Assembly: GCA_004299845.1 (NCBI GenBank)
Contig: CP036201.1
Span: 2,542,001-2,606,000, forward strand
Length of the DNA: 64,000 bases
Direction: 5' to 3'
From: Verrucomicrobia bacterium S94
GTDB lineage: Bacteria > Verrucomicrobiota > Kiritimatiellia > Kiritimatiellales > Pontiellaceae
Below are positions 13,072 to 59,565 of this stretch, piece after piece (position 1 is the first letter of the stretch; each line of letters starts with the position of its first letter). Below the pieces are notes generated by a model. That model saw only the letters and a list, made by a program, of their open reading frames with translations, was not told the DNA's origin and made no database searches. Made by a program: the position numbers and the translations under genes.

Positions 13072-13626
13072 TTACCAATCCCGCAGATAATGACAGCCGT
13101 GCGGCCCGTGTTTTTTGAAGTAATTCTGATGATACTCTTCAGCCCTGTAGAAAGCAGAGGCCTTTGTAATTTCGGTAACGATCGGTTTTTTCCAACGTTT
13201 CTGCGCTTCGGGAAGAACCTTTTCCGCCACAGCTTTCTGCTCATCGTTCAGATAGAAAATGGCGGAACGATACTGCGACCCGCGGTCGGGACCCTGCCGA
13301 TTCAGGGTGGTCGGATCATGCAGACGCCAGAAATAGATACAGAGTTCTTCGTAGGAAACTTTTTCAGGATCATAGATGACCTCAACAGCTTCGGCATGGC
13401 CGGTATCCTGATAACAGATCTCTTTATAGGTCGGATTTTCAGTGTGTCCGCCGGTATATCCCGAAGTCGCTTCCTGCACGCCGTCCAGTTCTTCAAACAA
13501 CGCCTCAACGCCCCAGAAACACCCCGCCGCAAAAATAGCCTTTTCCATATCCGACTCCTTTTCTACTGCACCGGCCGTAACAGCCAATCCCAACAATGCA
13601 CATAGCGCAAACCGTCTTGTGATCAT
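13072..13626 (-). CDS. msrA: Peptide-methionine (S)-S-oxide reductase, probably exported
   Basis: A 184-residue MsrA: catalytic AAGCFWGVEALFEEL near residue 34, then SGYTGGHTENPTYKEICYQDTGHAEAV, DPTTLNRQGPDRGSQYRSAIF and the C-terminal EYHQNYF. The family reduces Met-S-sulfoxide in oxidised proteins using thioredoxin. The chain starts MITRRFALCALLGLAVTAGA, and GGAGGGCGAT sits correctly before that ATG, so a signal peptide seems real and the enzyme probably works in the envelope. An internal Met at residue 27 could give a cytoplasmic form. No msrB is nearby. It precedes the hemolysin-III gene. Confidence 0.93.
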   Translation of the reverse strand: MITRRFALCALLGLAVTAGAVEKESDMEKAIFAAGCFWGVEALFEELDGVQEATSGYTGGHTENPTYKEICYQDTGHAEAVEVIYDPEKVSYEELCIYFWRLHDPTTLNRQGPDRGSQYRSAIFYLNDEQKAVAEKVLPEAQKRWKKPIVTEITKASAFYRAEEYHQNYFKKHGPHGCHYLRDW

Positions 13627-15711: not shown

Positions 15712-15770
15712 TTAAAAAAAAGACCTCTTTAGGGAAAGCGGTTTTTCTGGATTGCGTTTCGACGGTGATG

Positions 15771-15789
15771 ACATAGCATTACGCTATGT
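15771..15789 (+). promoter_or_regulatory. Inverted repeat over the start codon of the DA1-like gene
   Basis: Perfect 7-base arms ACATAGC (15771-15777) and GCTATGT (15783-15789) with a 5-base loop. The ATG at 15786-15788 lies in the right arm, so in mRNA the start codon would be paired. It could equally be a DNA operator; nothing here decides between them. Confidence 0.45.
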
Positions 15790-16838
15790 TTTCCCGTCGA
15801 TCCATGTTAAGCGCATTGCGGATACTCCTTGTACTTCCGGGCACGAAACTGATGGCGGAGGCAAACCCACCGACCGTATGCGAAGTCTGCGGAGAGCCGT
15901 TGCCCGGACGTTACTGGAATTATGAGGGCCACGCCTGCTGTTCCCAGCAGTGTGTCGATGTACTTCGTCCGAAATGCGCAAAATGCGGGCGACCGATCAG
16001 CGGCCAGTATATTGAGGCGGACGGAAAGATCTACTGCTCGCAGAAGTGTTTCAACAGCACCCTGCCGCGTTGCGAAATCTGCGGGGTGCATATCGAGTCG
16101 GGATACAGTATTACCCGGCACAACTATTGCGACGAATGCCTGAAAAACAGCCCGACCTGCTTTTCCTGCGGTCTGCCGGCAAAAAATCCGACCGAGCTCA
16201 GCGACGGACGTATTGTGTGCAGTATCTGCCGGAGCGCATCGGCGGACACGATCGACGTCGCACTGAAGCATTACGACCTCGCCCGTCGGGAACTGGAAAG
16301 CTGGTGCGGGTTACAGATGCAGACCGTTCCACAGCTTAAACTGGTGGATCGCGACGATATGGGAGAACTGTCCGGCACCCTTCGCAAAACGGATGAACCG
16401 GTGACCATCCGCGGGCTATACAGCCGGCAGACCATGCTGGTTAAACGCGGCCTGTTCGGCAGCTGGCGCAAAGATGAAGGGCAGTCGAACGAATCCATCT
16501 ATATTCTGGACCATCTCCATGAGGAAGTTTTCCGTGTTGCCGCCATACACGAACTGATGCACGACCTGGTACATGAACATTTTCCAAAGCTCGAAAATGC
16601 TCCGCTGTGGGTTCACGAAGGGATCTCTCAGTTTGCCGCCGCGGAATACTGCCGGAAGCGGAACTATCTGGATGCCCTCGATACCATTGAAACCAGTAAA
16701 GACCCGGACTATGGCGACGGGTATCGCTATTTCAACGCACTGGCCGGATCCGGGGGCTGGCCCGCTCTCCGGCACTGGATTGAAAAAGTAGAGGTTTCCG
16801 GACTTCCCCCTCAGGCTCCGCTTCCCGCAGCACAATGA
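15786..16838 (+). CDS. Exported LIM-type zinc-finger protein with DA1-like metallopeptidase domain
   Basis: A 350-residue protein. A short hydrophobic N-terminus (ILLVLPGTKLMAEA) looks like a signal peptide. Residues about 30-150 hold repeated CxxC modules (CEVCGEPL, CSQQCVDV, CAKCGRPI, CSQKCFNS, CEICGVHI, CDECL, CFSCG, CSIC) as in tandem LIM domains. The second half contains AAIHELMHDLVHEHFP and LWVHEGISQFAAAEYC, the HExxH plus downstream Glu arrangement of the DA1-like peptidases known from plant DA1 proteins. Substrate unknown. No clear ribosome site precedes the ATG at 15786; a second ATG at 15804 is possible. It converges on the K+ channel gene. Confidence 0.75.
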   Translation: MFSRRSMLSALRILLVLPGTKLMAEANPPTVCEVCGEPLPGRYWNYEGHACCSQQCVDVLRPKCAKCGRPISGQYIEADGKIYCSQKCFNSTLPRCEICGVHIESGYSITRHNYCDECLKNSPTCFSCGLPAKNPTELSDGRIVCSICRSASADTIDVALKHYDLARRELESWCGLQMQTVPQLKLVDRDDMGELSGTLRKTDEPVTIRGLYSRQTMLVKRGLFGSWRKDEGQSNESIYILDHLHEEVFRVAAIHELMHDLVHEHFPKLENAPLWVHEGISQFAAAEYCRKRNYLDALDTIETSKDPDYGDGYRYFNALAGSGGWPALRHWIEKVEVSGLPPQAPLPAAQ

Positions 16839-27042: not shown

Positions 27043-28016
27043 TGAAACGGATCCTCTGCCTGCTCCTCCTCACCGCCTCTGCCGCTGTGGCACAGTTTGA
27101 CCGGACCGAACTCCACACCTTCACCAACAGCGAAGGCAAAACCCTCACCGACCGCATTGCAAAATATGATGTGGAAAAACAGGAGGTTCTGCTCGAAAAA
27201 AGCGGAAAAGTTCCTCTCGAAACTTTCAGCGAAGCCGATCAGGCCTACATTCTTCACTGGAACCAGGTCGAAGGATTCAGCTCCGCACTGCGCTTTAAAA
27301 TGGAGCTGAAAAAGAATACCTGGTCTAGCATGAAGCATGAACAGAACATTACCCCCTACTACATGGACGCCATTCAGATTCCCGGCAAACGAACCCCGAA
27401 TCACAATGTAATTCTGCTGGAGGATTACGAGGAATACAGCGCGGTCTATCTGCAGGCCGAAGGCTACGAAATCACGCTCCGGAATCAGAACCTTTTTCCC
27501 ATCGAAAATATCACTGTGGAAAGCAAGATTTTCTATGAACAGGAACAGTACATTGTTCCCGACAGTCTTTTTGCCAGTGAGGATAATGATTACTTCGACA
27601 CCGTGCTGACCAACAAATACCGCTATATGTCCGAAACCATACCGATCATGGTTACACGTGAAGAAGTCGTCCTGCATTCCGAAGCCGCGATTATTGCAGA
27701 TCATCAGATCGAACGAAATGCCCTCATTACTTCGACACAGGACGACGGGGAAGATCAAGTCAGTGACGGCTCCACGGATATTGAAGGATTCGGCGAATGG
27801 GACGATCACGGCCGGCGGCGCAAAGGGCGGGTTATCGGCGCATGGTTCCGGGTCGGCATCAAAGGGCTCGACGGCAACATGGTCTGGCGCGATATCGCCT
27901 CACCCTCTTCGCTGATCGACAGATGGCCCTCTTTCGAAACAGCCGGTCTCCCGGAACAGGCACAGAATGACCGAGAGAAAAACGCACCTGCCGATCCGCC
28001 GTCTACCGGAGATTAA
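27042..28016 (+). CDS. Secreted SHD1-like protein coupled to the vWA protein
   Basis: The 324-residue product begins MKRILCLLLLTASAAVA, a signal peptide, then FTNSEGKTLTDRIAKYDVEKQEVLLEKSGKVPLETFSEADQAYI, the pattern of an SHD1-like beta domain. The middle part (ITLRNQNLFPIENITVESKIFYEQEQ) looks like an Ig-like fold but I cannot assign it. The end is a charged, Pro-rich tail. Its ATG overlaps the upstream TGA. It converges with ccoI: the two coding ends overlap by 4 bp at 28013-28016, and no terminator hairpin is visible between them. Confidence 0.7.
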   Translation: MKRILCLLLLTASAAVAQFDRTELHTFTNSEGKTLTDRIAKYDVEKQEVLLEKSGKVPLETFSEADQAYILHWNQVEGFSSALRFKMELKKNTWSSMKHEQNITPYYMDAIQIPGKRTPNHNVILLEDYEEYSAVYLQAEGYEITLRNQNLFPIENITVESKIFYEQEQYIVPDSLFASEDNDYFDTVLTNKYRYMSETIPIMVTREEVVLHSEAAIIADHQIERNALITSTQDDGEDQVSDGSTDIEGFGEWDDHGRRRKGRVIGAWFRVGIKGLDGNMVWRDIASPSSLIDRWPSFETAGLPEQAQNDREKNAPADPPSTGD

Positions 28017-30330
28017 ACCGTTTTCCGTACCGCTTTCGGAAGATTCATGCCGTAGACCGAATTGAAGATGACCACCAGGTTGGAGAAGACCATGCCGACT
28101 GCACAGTATTTCGGGGACAGCCAGCCGACACCGGCCAGAAACATCCCTGTAATATTGTAGGCAAACGCCCAGCCGTAATTCAGACGGATTTTATGCCGCA
28201 CCTTGCGTTGCATAAACGGCAGGCTGGACAGTTTTCCAATCTCCGGAACCATAAACACGCCGTCGGCACTCATTTTTGCCGGAATCTGTCCGGAAAACAC
28301 CGCAAGACCGAAGTCGGCCGCCGCCAATGCCTGCGCATCATTAATGCCGTCGCCCACCATCATCACGCTGTTTCCATCGGCCTGAAGCCGGGCAATTTCC
28401 TGCTGTTTATCGCCGCTGCCCATTTCTCCGAAATAATGCTCAATTCCCAATTCACCGGCCACCTGCTCAACCACCGGTTTACGGTCGCCCGAAAAAATAT
28501 AGGGTTTGACGCCGTTGTTCTTCAGATCCTGAATGAGACCGCCCGACTCTTCACGAACGGTATCCCTGAGCCCGACAATACAGTCGCACTGCTCAGGCGT
28601 ACCGAACATCACAAGCGTTGAATCCCGCAGGTCGGGCGGAATTCCAATGTCCGGAAAAAGACCGGCACTGCCGGCGACATAGTGCTTCCCATCCACTTTC
28701 CCCGAAACCACAGTACGCGCAATGGTCCGCTCCTCCACCGGCTTCGGCGTTCCGATTGCCGCCAGAGCGCGGGCGATCGGATGCTCAATCCCGTTTTCAA
28801 GCGAAGCCAGCAGGTCGAGTTTTTTTTCGTTCTTTTCCGTAAGCCAGACCACACGGTGCACCTCCGGTGTCCCGCGGGTCAGTGTGCCGGTTTTATCAAA
28901 AACCGCCACCGCCGGTTTAAGAGCCAGCACAGTGCCATTAAAAATCTGAATACCCAGTCCACGCACCTTTTCAATGGCGGCGGTGAGTACGAGCGGTTCG
29001 GCAATCCCGAATGCACAGGGACAGGCCACAATCAGCACCGACAGCATACGGATAATCGCATCATTACGATCGCCCCAGAACACATTGCCCGTCAGCACAA
29101 TCAGCGAAATCAGCACCACAACCGGCACAAAATACTGGCTGATATGATCCCCGAACGACAACTGTTCCTTGCGGGTGTTGAAAGCCTCAATCGTGCTTTC
29201 AACAATCTTTTTAATAAGGTTGCTCTGCCCCCGGCCGGCACGGAAAGTCTGGCATCATCGGAGAGCAGTCGGGCACCGGCTCCGACATAGTGACCCTGTT
29301 CCAGCGAAACACCGTGCGATTCCCCGGTGATCAGACTGAAGTCAAATTCGGCCGGTCCCATCAGTATACCATCGGTCGGAACAAACTCATCGCGCTTCAC
29401 CAGAAATTCTGTACCGGGCTCCAGCTCTTCCACGGCAGCATAATCTTCATCAACGTCATTCCCTTTGATCCGCGCTTTTTTCGGCAGCTGCCATGAAAGT
29501 GAGCTGACGCGGCGGCTCAGTTTTTTGTAGAACGAACCTGAAATCAGGTTTCCGGTTTCAATCAGCATCAGCAGCAGTGTAACCACATCAAAATAGAGAT
29601 GGGCAAAATCGCCGGTGAGCATGGAATAGACCGAATAGATCCAGGCCGCAGAAGTGGAGAGCACCACAAGACTCTCCATACGGAACTGACGACTGACAAT
29701 CTGCCGCCAGCCCATCACCATCGTGGTCCTGGCGGCATAAAACGGAACCAGTGTGCCGAACAGAGCCAGCAGAATGGAACAGACCAGCTGCATGGCGAAC
29801 GGCACATCCCAGCTTTCGGCCGAATAAACGACAAACGAAATCATCATATTATTCAGCGCAAAAAACCAGCCGGCTCCAAAACGGAAATAGTCGAACGAAT
29901 CGCGTTGTGCGTCCTCACCTTCGTAGTATTTATAACCGAGTTTTTCGATATTCGACTGAATGGTATCCTTACCGATCTGCATCGGGTCATAGGAAAGAGT
30001 GCACGTTTCGGCAATAAAGTTAAGGTTTACATTTCCAACCCCGGGAAGTTTCCCCAGACTGTTGTGCACCAGCCAGGAACAGGCGGGACAGACCATGCCG
30101 CCCACGAGAAAACAGAGATCCTGTCCGTTTTCAATTTCCTTCTCTTCCGTCTCCACTTCCCGTCCATCGGGAAAAACACCTTCCAGAAGCTGGGCAATAC
30201 GTTCATCGCGCTCCGCCCCGTCGAGCTCCATTTTACCGATAATGACGTGTACAGCAGCGCAGCCGGGACAACAGAAATCGCCCTCGCCTCCCGGAACCGT
30301 GCGGTTACAGACTATGCAGTGATCAGCCAT
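28013..30330 (-). CDS. ccoI: Copper-exporting P1B-type ATPase for cbb3 oxidase assembly (frameshift)
   Basis: Two frames together encode one CcoI/FixI protein of about 772 residues. N-terminus: MADHCIVCNRTV ... FCCPGCAAVH and the heavy-metal domain GGMVCPACSWLVHNSL. The second frame, from about 29228 on, has VACPCAFGIAEPLVLTAAIEK (CPC ion site), FDKTGTLTRGTPEV (phosphorylated Asp) and MMVGDGINDAQALAAADFGLAV. The break lies at the G5 run read from 29232 to 29228; one more G restores APAGGQSNL-like continuity. The ATG at 30330 overlaps the SafE-like stop. The pump delivers Cu+ to the periplasm for the oxidase. Confidence 0.88.
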
Positions 30331-31000
30331 TTTCCGCCGGAGTGATTCGAAGTACAAAAAGCACGCAGTACACGATGCCGATGATCAGACAGAGCCACGG
30401 AAAAGCTTTCTCGAAACGGGCACCCCATTTTTTATCGACCAGCCTGCCGAGCGAAATACCAAGCTGCATGAAAAAGGTCTGGGTGATCACAAACGCCAGC
30501 ATAAAGGCCCCGCCCTTCCACCAGCTCCCCTGACCGACCGCCATAGCGAACGCAGCATAGAGCATGCCGCACGGAATCAGCGATGTGCAGGCTCCTCCAA
30601 GTGTCAGCTTACCCAGCCCTCCGCTGAAAAAACGGGACAGCCAGTTGTTTTTCGGCGCTTTGAGTCCCTTGCGGCGGAAAGCATAAAACGCGATAAAAAA
30701 CATGATCACTCCAGGAAACAGCAGCGACAGCAACGCTCCGCGAACCGGGTTAAGACCGATCTGACAGCAGAAGTGTGCGGGCCCGATATCGATGAACTCC
30801 CCGAATGCGCCGAACAGAATACCCGCCAGGGTATACCCCGCAATCCGGCCCAGATTGAAAAGCGATAACGCCTTCAGACTTTTTTCGCGGTGAAGTGCAC
30901 AGACGGAGACGTGCAACGGTCCGCACATCGCATAACAATGAGGAATGGCGGTGAAACCGATTCCGGCTCCGAGAATGATTGCGGCAATAAGCTGTTCCAT
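30323..31000 (-). CDS. SafE/TauE-like membrane protein of cbb3 oxidase clusters
   Basis: A 225-residue polytopic protein starting MEQLIAAIILGAGIGFTAIPHCYAMCGPLHVSVCAL, with the HCxxMCGP motif usual in the 'sulfite exporter TauE/SafE family' proteins next to cco genes. The later GGACTSLIPCGMLYAAFAMAVGQGS motif has a second conserved Cys pair. These proteins are thought to help copper or heme delivery to cbb3 oxidase; the exact role is unsettled. I preferred ATG 31000 to an upstream GTG (31045) because it starts with a membrane helix. Its stop overlaps the ccoI start. Confidence 0.82.
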   Translation of the reverse strand: MEQLIAAIILGAGIGFTAIPHCYAMCGPLHVSVCALHREKSLKALSLFNLGRIAGYTLAGILFGAFGEFIDIGPAHFCCQIGLNPVRGALLSLLFPGVIMFFIAFYAFRRKGLKAPKNNWLSRFFSGGLGKLTLGGACTSLIPCGMLYAAFAMAVGQGSWWKGGAFMLAFVITQTFFMQLGISLGRLVDKKWGARFEKAFPWLCLIIGIVYCVLFVLRITPAENG

Positions 31001-37434: not shown

Positions 37435-38777
37435 TTAGTGTCCTCCTCCTGCGGCCTGTTCCACCCAGGGGTAGACAATCGACCAGTTTTCACCGCGGAA
37501 GTACACGCCGATAATGATCAGCGTAAGCATGAACAGATACATGCCGATGAAGAGCGCATTTTCAATCCAGCGTTCACGCGCAAACCAGACACCGGGAATA
37601 TTTTTCCGGTAGGTTTTCGTAAAGGTTTCCAACGCAATTTCAACGTACGGCAGGAACATGACACCCCCGCCAGAATACCCGGTATGACAATACCTCCGAT
37701 AAATCCGTCGTAGGAGGTCAGTTCCTGCAGACCCAGGAAATACCACGGCGCCTTTGCCGGGTTGGTCGGATGGCTCGGATCGGCCGGACCCTCCAGCGGT
37801 GCATCAAAGAATACGGAGATCAGACTCATGACCACCATGAGACCGGCAAAAACCATCAATTCACGAACAATCAGTTTCGGCCAGGCGAACATCATCTGAT
37901 CCACTTCCTCGTTCACCTTCGGTTCGTTGCCCTTCACAATTTCAACCAGTTTATAACTGCGCGCCGCTTTGAAAACCGAGTTGTTTTTCACTTCGCCGAA
38001 CTCCTCATCCGGAATCTGTTTTTCGTTGGAGGTATCCGCCGGCCGGGCCAGCCCGCCGTCTTTTCGGATGCGGAAAAAGTGGACCGCAATCAGGAAACCC
38101 ATCACACTCGGAAGCACCGCCACGTGAAGCACATAGAAGCGGATCAGCGCTTCCGCTCCCACGTCGGTATCACCCAGCAGCACGGCACGAATCAGCGCAC
38201 CACCCGGAGCGATTTTCGCAATTTCAGTACCGACTTTCACCCCCCAGAAGGCCAGCTGGTCCCAGGGCAGCAGATAACCGGTATAGGAAAGGAAAACAGT
38301 CAGCAGACCGAGCAGACAGCCAACCACCCAGTTGAATTCACGCCCGCCGCGGTGGGCGCCCGCCAGATAAACCCGCAGCATGTGCAGCGCCACAAACGCC
38401 ACCATACCATGAGCCGACCAGCGGTGCATGTTCCGCAGAAAATCGCCCCAGAATACGTTGGAACGCAGGTTGACCATGCGGCTGTAGGCATCCGGCAGTC
38501 CATCCGGACCGATCGCCGTCGACGGCACATAATGGAACATCAGCAGAATACCGGTCGTTGCCAGCAGCAGAAACAGGTAGAAGGTAATCAGTCCGAGCCC
38601 CATCGTGGTCTTGAACTTCACCGTACGTTTGTGAATCTTGACCGGTTGAATATGCAGCAGCACATTGCTGAACATAATCTTGGATTTGGTCAAACCCGTA
38701 TTATCCATGCGATGCCGGAAGAAGGAATAATACAGTTTATTCCCGAATTCCTTCATCTGTTTTCTCAATTCATCCAT
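37435..38777 (-). CDS. Cytochrome b of a bc-type quinol oxidoreductase (frameshift)
   Basis: About 447 residues once two frames are joined. The N-terminal four-helix part has NMHRWSAHGMVAFVALHMLRVYLAG and FYVLHVAVLPSVMGFLIAVHFFRIRKDGG, the His pairs for two b hemes. The C-terminal part has PAKAPWYFLGLQELTSYDGFIGG, an APWY form of the PEWY quinol site, as in fused petBD proteins. The frame is lost at a G5 run read from 37668 to 37664, where one more G restores ILAGGVMFLPYVEIALETF, ending in GGH at 37437. The end abuts the cytochrome c start. Oxidises quinol with the Rieske protein. Confidence 0.88.
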
Positions 38778-38804: not shown

Positions 38805-39278
38805 TTAGGCTATATTAAAAGTTGTACCTTCCGGCAGTGCCGTACCGGTATCGATTTCCAGCTGTCCGCCCGGAACAGGTTTAATTTCAAGCCAGGGCAG
38901 CGTTTTCGGAGCCGGACCGCCGACCACAATACCGTCGGTATCGTACTGCGAACCATGGCAGGGACACTGAAAGCCGGTTTCCACTACATTGACGGTGCAG
39001 CCGAGGTGCGTACATACCAGCGAAATAGCGGCAACTTTTTCTTCTGCCACCCGGCGCAGAATCACCTTCATTTCTTCAAAAACCAATTCATCACCGACAT
39101 CCGGCAGATCTTTAACCGGCACCAGAAATTTCTGAGGGGTTCCGTATGAAACCACCGGCATCATATATTTAAACAGCGCACCGCCCGCACCGGCAGCCGC
39201 CAGTCCCATTAAGCCGAAAGCCGACCCCATTGTGATCAGCTCGCGCCGGCTCTTACCTTCTTTTTTCTTTTCCGACAT
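38805..39278 (-). CDS. Rieske iron-sulfur protein
   Basis: A 157-residue protein with an [24 protein letters not shown] start, a twin-Arg-type signal that probably stays as a membrane anchor. The 2Fe-2S cluster is bound by CTHLGCTVN and [12 protein letters not shown], the standard Rieske box. It accepts electrons from quinol at the cytochrome b site and passes them to c-type heme. Its ATG overlaps the stop of the ccoS-like gene by one base and cytochrome b starts 27 bp downstream, so this is one operon. Confidence 0.95.
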
Positions 39279-58831: not shown

Positions 58832-59565
58832 TCACTCAATGACTTTTCTCAGTTCGTCGACAACTTGATCACGGATGGATGCTGCAACAGGTTCATCAAA
58901 CGTTTCCTGTAGCACTTCCGTAAGTTTTTCACCTTTACAGACCACCACACCGTTTACATTCATGATGTCTTCCGGAAGTCCGGTTTTTAAAAAACAGAGC
59001 ACAGAATGGACCGGAAGATCCCCGCATCCGGCATCATCGATAAAACGGATCAACTCGGCAGCTGCGTCCTTCACCTGTCTGAGCGGCGGCCTGCCGGGTT
59101 CTTTACCGCCGGGAAAAACCAGCCGCCCCTCCTTAAACTCCACCGAACCCTGCCAGTTCTTTGTTTCCACCACAAAAATGCCGGTCGGTGCCACGATAAT
59201 GTGATCAAAGTTATGTTTTCCGCCCAGGCGGAGCCCATTAAACACCGTGTAATTTGATGGAAGAAAAGCCAGTTCGTGTGCCACCCACTCTTCCCCTTCG
59301 CCCCTTTCAGAAAATGGCCCAGCCGGCGCTCGCCCCATGCCAGCAGAATGGCGGTTCCTACGGCCAGAAGAAAAAAGAGAACGCCGACAGAGGATACACT
59401 CAGATAAGGAGCAGGAAACCAGGCGCGCAGCAGATAGCCGGTAACAAAGCAGATCACCAACAGCGGCCAGAACGCACGTAACAGACCCAGAACACGCGGC
59501 TCTTCACCGGGACTTCCATAGACCCGGGCAAACTGCGCACTTAACGATTTATCAGGAATTTCCAT
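58832..59565 (-). CDS. Membrane protein with NERD (nuclease-related) domain (frameshift)
   Basis: Two frames join into about 244 residues. The first part has two hydrophobic helices (ALLRAFWPLLVICFVTGYLL-like and YLSVSSVGVLFFLLAVGTAILLA). The second frame holds the NERD domain: EGEEWVAHELAFLPSNYTVFNGL, HNFDHIIVAPTGIFVVETKNWQG, the IDHVVV...VETKNW nuclease-fold motif, then a helical tail. The frame break lies at the GGGG run read from 59304 to 59301; one more G gives LKGGEGEEW. NERD proteins are linked to DNA processing, but most are uncharacterised. Frame break is probably an assembly error. Confidence 0.78.

Follow-up and report, generated by a model that had tools for sequence, protein, structure and literature searches.

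A predicted exported zinc metallopeptidase of the DA1-like family, with four tandem zinc modules, in the bacterial family Pontiellaceae

What would a protein built like the plant growth regulator DA1 do in a bacterium, outside the cytoplasm, where ubiquitin-type control is absent? The question is raised by a gene at positions 15786-16838 (plus strand, as are all features of the gene given below) of the window, by which we mean the whole stretch of 64,000 nucleotides from the marine Verrucomicrobia bacterium S94 that was analysed. A preliminary description of this DNA had read the open reading frame as an apparently exported fusion of tandem LIM-like modules with a DA1-type peptidase. The frame is exactly where it had been placed, with CxxC pairs at residues 32/35, 64/67, 96/99 and 125/128. 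It is a real conserved gene, a chance ORF being excluded by its orthologues and by the conservation of the frame. Among 58 related genomes searched, 18 have an orthologue, 17 of them from the family Pontiellaceae, counting the source genome, and the last from the wider class (Kiritimatiellota is a class within a larger phylum in the genome set used); Pontiellaceae bacterium B12227 and a Kiritimatiellales genome are named examples. The orthologous frames stay open through the peptidase. Compared with the nearest orthologue, third codon positions hold 51 of 67 differences in the zinc region and 58 of 84 in residues 241-350, and the first eight codons are identical in a close orthologue from genome G027. 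No relatives were found in the viral and plasmid collections searched. In the product, a predicted exported LIM-like/DA1-like zinc metallopeptidase of 350 amino acids, a short signal sequence is followed by four Cys4 zinc modules and then by a metallopeptidase domain whose core is HELMH-x18-E.

Does such a protein belong with DA1 at all? Scanned by itself against Pfam and NCBIfam, the protein gave only sub-threshold zinc-ribbon and peptidase matches and no DA1-like match. Weak DA1-like matches at E<=1 were obtained for six of the 18 close orthologues (best 0.0036), and all 15 proteins of a PF12315-positive bacterial set match DA1-like, the best at 1.1e-12. When the orthologue alignment was compared with the PF12315-positive proteins, hhalign gave a probability of 100% and E 2e-59 over 311 columns, zinc modules included. 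Because Pfam misses the protein while the family profiles align, we assign it to the DA1-like family in a broad sense, through an intermediate profile and not by a direct match. Judged by its sequence, it would be a distant but clear relative of DA1. The proposed DA1-type peptidase is supported by the family profiles, by an intact gluzincin core and by the predicted fold.

The presence of such a protein in a bacterium is less surprising than the preliminary description had suggested. Bacterial DA1-like proteins are already known, in the literature and in Pfam: those of Roseiflexus are noted in PMC5322733 where it cites Burroughs et al. 2011, and PF12315 is present, in proteins with the same layout, in 24 of 240 genomes of the phylum (about a tenth). 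When the combined profile was run against 387 genomes of the phylum, 90 had a match at E<=0.001, mostly full-length; the tail of weak matches was taken as outside the family. Within this family the Pontiellaceae proteins form a separate clade (support 100/100). What seems to be new, as far as we have checked, is a divergent DA1-like subfamily invisible to PF12315, together with the apparently near-universal signal sequences of the phylum's members and the Tat-like signal of one clade.

The putative gluzincin domain comprises residues 154-341 (16245-16808) and was recognised by homology to PF12315 and by structural similarity to M1 peptidases. HELMH occupies residues 255-259 (16548-16562), with H255, E256 and H259 as zinc-binding and catalytic residues, and HEGISQ residues 277-282, both as previously described; the third zinc ligand, E278 (16617-16619), lies in the HEG motif (277-279). 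Over 33 sequences H255, E256, H259, D260, E278, G279, Y309, G310 and G312 are invariant, and H255, E256, H259 and E278 are so in the 18-member orthologue alignment as well. The zinc triad that had been proposed, two histidines of HELMH and the glutamate of HEG, thus consists of invariant residues, and the 18 residues between the last histidine of HELMH and E278 are the spacing of M1 gluzincins. Spacing varies within the family: it is 16 residues in 51 ORFs and 18 in 21 (Pontiellaceae among them), and ten ORFs have 15, 17 or 19. Both HExxH and an EGxx[EQ] downstream of it are present in 82 of the 84 family ORFs; of the remaining two, one is a fragment and the other is not a peptidase. By their active-site residues, no full-length members appear to be pseudoenzymes.

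An AF2 model computed from the 33-sequence alignment has pLDDT 89.4 and pTM 0.80. In VIA-align its residues 154-350 match insulin-regulated aminopeptidase with Z 10.2 and LTA4H with Z ~10, just above the level which that program calls commonplace, and the M1 alignments mostly have an rmsd of 3.3-3.9 A over 150-158 residues with 11-16% identity. A sequence search of the PDB found no DA1-family chain, and we found no biochemistry of a bacterial member.

The four modules preceding the peptidase are module A (C32xxC35...C52xxxC56; 15879-15953) and module B (C64xxC67...C84xxxC88; 15975-16049), both with invariant cysteines, and modules C (C96xxC99...C115xxC118; 16071-16139) and D (C125xxC128...DGRxxC145xxC148; 16158-16229). 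Every module cysteine is invariant in the 18-member alignment save C118, which is nearly so. The last two modules are the LIM-like cysteine pair of DA1, module C being its first half, and stand directly before the peptidase. Both are conserved in the two subfamilies: C96, C99 and C115 are invariant and C118 is kept in at least 90%, while in module D the cysteines are invariant and the DGR of DGRxxC is kept in at least 90%. Module A is preceded by no more than some 24 signal residues and a short linker; hence there are no ubiquitin-interacting motifs, and the ubiquitin-binding part is absent as had been noted.

Whether these modules are LIM domains is a more delicate matter. The structure prediction proposed in the preliminary description yields a tandem of four treble clefs, for which LIM proteins are the best structural matches. 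With the zinc region modelled alone (pLDDT 92.8), modules A to C show a knuckle, a hairpin and a helix, and module D the same order with a shorter hairpin; such units are treble clefs as defined in PMC4999995. The top Foldseek matches are all LIM proteins, namely PINCH1 LIM4-5 (E 1.4e-6), paxillin, Lhx3 and Isl1. When superposed globally, the array fits LIM loosely (VIA-align Z 4.6, rmsd 7.3 A over 99 residues), and module B alone fits ribosomal protein L24e to 1.0-2.2 A over 32-36 residues. Pfam LIM (PF00412) does not match the protein at E<=10 and is not among the 25 families listed for the orthologues; sub-threshold LIM matches occur in five of 15 distant relatives (best 0.0021). The description of tandem LIM-like modules can therefore be kept in part: the modules number four and are treble clefs arranged like a LIM tandem, but LIM consensus spacing is missed and no LIM model matches. 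A fair description of the predicted structure would be an array of four tandem treble clefs, LIM-like in arrangement, with no bona fide LIM domain. A rubredoxin-like folding of the CxxC modules, unrelated to LIM, had also been considered; it is absent among the structural matches listed, and neither it nor a lack of any structural match to the DA1 fold, the two outcomes that would have spoken against the reading, was observed.

The zinc array also occurs without the peptidase. In genome G229 a 694-aa protein (L142:3528-5609, minus strand) has about ten of the same zinc modules with neither HExxH nor signal sequence; its remainder looks nuclease-like by eye (VQAKAGYK) and has no Pfam match.

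One might then suppose that the array is a zinc store or a scaffold and that the attached peptidase is inactive. We know of no activity for any bacterial DA1-like member, and the modules without a peptidase in L142 agree with such a role. Over deep divergence, however, neither the zinc ligands nor the general base vary, and we consider this very improbable.

On which side of the membrane does the protein act? Residues 1-24 (15786-15857; cleavage site approximate) form a predicted signal sequence, MFSRRSMLSALRILLVLPGTKLMA, in which a hydrophobic segment follows a twin-arginine motif, SRRSM, at residues 3-7 (15792-15806). A signal-like segment precedes the first module in nearly every intact family member of the phylum (about 80). 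Outside Pontiellaceae a strongly hydrophobic stretch stands directly before the first cysteine module in 64 of 66 family ORFs; of the other two, one is a fragment at a contig end and one lacks the peptidase. Export, which had been supposed from one N-terminus, is borne out by signal sequences conserved across the family, and the signal looks to be of twin-arginine, Tat, type.

The SRRxF form of the Tat motif is conserved in the Pontiellaceae clade alone, in 17 of 18 members versus effectively none of 66 elsewhere, as the sole match outside falls upstream of a start codon. Column by column, S is kept in 14 of 17, each R in 16 of 17 and F in 14 of 17 sequences, with a variable residue before F, and most other N-terminal columns are free. 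The motif must lie within the protein, because several members have no possible start codon other than upstream of it. TatC was found in 55 of the 58 genomes, including the source genome (E 1.4e-54).

The same peptidase could, however, have an uncleaved membrane anchor or a Sec signal as its N-terminus and work on the outer side of the inner membrane, with RR being an ordinary positive n-region. Every relative outside Pontiellaceae has a Sec-like, hydrophobic N-terminus, and in one Pontiellaceae member (L007) the RR pair is missing. The h-region of the window protein contains an arginine (LSALRILLVLPG), which we counted against the Tat reading, and curated Tat models gave no match in the tested orthologues. 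Nor did they score the Rieske control of the window above cut-off. We still hold the anchor or Sec signal to be unlikely: 14-16 of 17 sequences conserve the pattern S-R-R-variable-F among adjoining columns that vary, the mean h-region hydrophobicity of Pontiellaceae is lower than that of the Sec-like relatives (2.22 vs 2.64), and many members show AxA-like cleavage sites. As the curated models scored neither these proteins nor the control, it is from conservation that we infer export by Tat. The sister group of the Pontiellaceae clade consists of five sequences from other families with Sec-like N-termini; hence the Tat-like signal was most simply gained within Pontiellaceae.

The Rieske protein just mentioned is a [2Fe-2S] protein encoded at 38805-39278 (minus strand) in a cytochrome b/c gene cluster; its SRRELITMG N-terminus is typical of Tat, making it useful as a control for Tat use in the source organism. 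A lipoprotein signal was considered and rejected: the cysteine found in the h-region of 13 of 17 Pontiellaceae sequences (alignment column 23) fits no lipobox and is absent from the window protein.

Can the neighbouring genes tell us what the substrate is? In the window the gene stands alone among neighbours on the opposite strand, an ACT-domain gene and DUF711 upstream and genes for an ion channel and an outer-membrane efflux protein downstream. A search for operons and partner genes found no conserved partner pointing to a substrate, the gene being alone in Pontiellaceae. In other clades ptsI is a neighbour in 14 loci (divergent, on the opposite strand, in 13) and an aldo/keto reductase gene adjoins in six. 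Also in six loci, all of one clade (L122, L103, L124, L086, L089 and L090), mraY lies upstream on the same strand, overlapping or less than 100 bases away in four. This adjacency may link the DA1-like gene to cell-wall synthesis, which is a hint towards the cell envelope only. Since the three contexts are lineage-specific and none occurs in Pontiellaceae, we claim no functional link.

Several further observations concern the window. A conserved GCATAGCATT (ACATAGCATT in the window, 15766-15785) stands directly before the start codon, and also upstream of the L004, L001 and L006 orthologues; it is a possible -10 element of a leaderless transcript. An MsrA gene 2.2 kb away (13072-13626, minus strand) has an export-like N-terminus, MITRRFALCALLGLAVTAGA, which suggests an extracytoplasmic methionine sulfoxide reductase. 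At 28013-30357 (minus strand) a gene recognised by eye as a copper-type P-type ATPase is split into overlapping ORFs in different frames, 28013-29161 and 29110-30357, and broken tails like those of this gene are seen at 37518-38777 and 58832-59565. These are possibly frameshift errors of long-read assembly.

Cys4 sites outside the cytoplasm are chemically vulnerable. This leads to another suggestion, in which regulation in response to metals or redox state is the main role of the protein: its 16-cysteine array would detect oxidation or the supply of zinc on the outside of the membrane, and would switch the peptidase. The MsrA gene nearby would suit such a role, as would the finding that a Cys-to-Tyr change in the LIM-like region of plant DA1 abolishes its peptidase activity (PMC5322733). 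Neither expression nor context ties the gene to redox or metals, however, and relatives with quite different neighbours have the same array. We regard such a regulator as distinctly unlikely.

The explanation that we consider best, and fairly probable, is that of an extracytoplasmic zinc endopeptidase, belonging to the bacterial branch of the DA1-like family and exported in folded form by Tat. The protein would be made with a twin-arginine signal, and in the reducing cytoplasm its treble-clef array would probably take up four structural zincs, in addition to the catalytic zinc. Tat would export the folded, zinc-loaded protein, and signal peptidase would release it. Outside the membrane the catalytic zinc would be held by H255, H259 and E278, and water activated by E256. 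The array, as the counterpart of the LIM/LIM-like region of plant DA1, would keep the peptidase in shape and present substrate proteins to it, with no ubiquitin step; the link between array and activity is borrowed from the Cys-to-Tyr result in plants. The putative substrate is most likely a cell-envelope protein. In this picture the gene, its family, the conserved motifs and the predicted folds were established computationally, while activity, export route and the function of the array are inferred.

A wider scenario can be offered tentatively, and we think it somewhat doubtful. Bacterial DA1-like proteins might be a family of extracytoplasmic proteases whose Cys4 array remains zinc-loaded outside the cytoplasm, one lineage having exchanged Sec for Tat, by which the array could fold prior to export. 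The ancestor of plant DA1 might then have been a bacterial envelope protease that was exported, and the plant regulator would have arisen by loss of the signal and acquisition of ubiquitin binding. Small exported relatives that are independent of ubiquitin could make expression and crystallisation less difficult. From them one would learn which role the zinc-finger region had before control by ubiquitin arose. The contrast of Sec and Tat inside one family would be a testable case for why zinc-finger proteins would use Tat.

We know other proteins built from similar parts. Plant DA1 and DAR proteins (Arabidopsis DA1, PF12315), whose peptidase is predicted to belong to clan MA (PMC5322733), share the order of zinc-finger region, LIM-like cysteine pair and HExxH...EG peptidase. 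They have ubiquitin-interacting motifs where the bacterial protein has a signal sequence, a LIM plus a LIM-like domain where it has four treble clefs, and a motif described as HEMMH-x15-EE in contrast to HExxH-x18-E; activation by ubiquitin is not expected for a bacterial protein outside the cell. Its PF12315 relatives in the phylum are homologous over the whole length, zinc modules included, and have signal-like N-termini, although those outside Pontiellaceae have Sec-like signals and mostly HExxH-x16-E. M1 aminopeptidases and LTA4H share the HExxH-x18-E spacing and the catalytic-domain fold, whereas the 350-aa protein is much smaller, lacks the GxMEN exopeptidase motif and has the low identity to them given above. 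LIM domains (PINCH1, paxillin, Lhx3) are likewise tandem treble clefs, but they have a two-residue spacer and close the first module with HxxC, while here 7, 7 and 6 residues separate the modules and CxxxC closes A and B. The TRASH, L24e and FCS treble clefs share the CxxC...YCSxxC pattern; unlike them, the DA1-like bacterial arrays usually consist of four such units and are fused to a peptidase.
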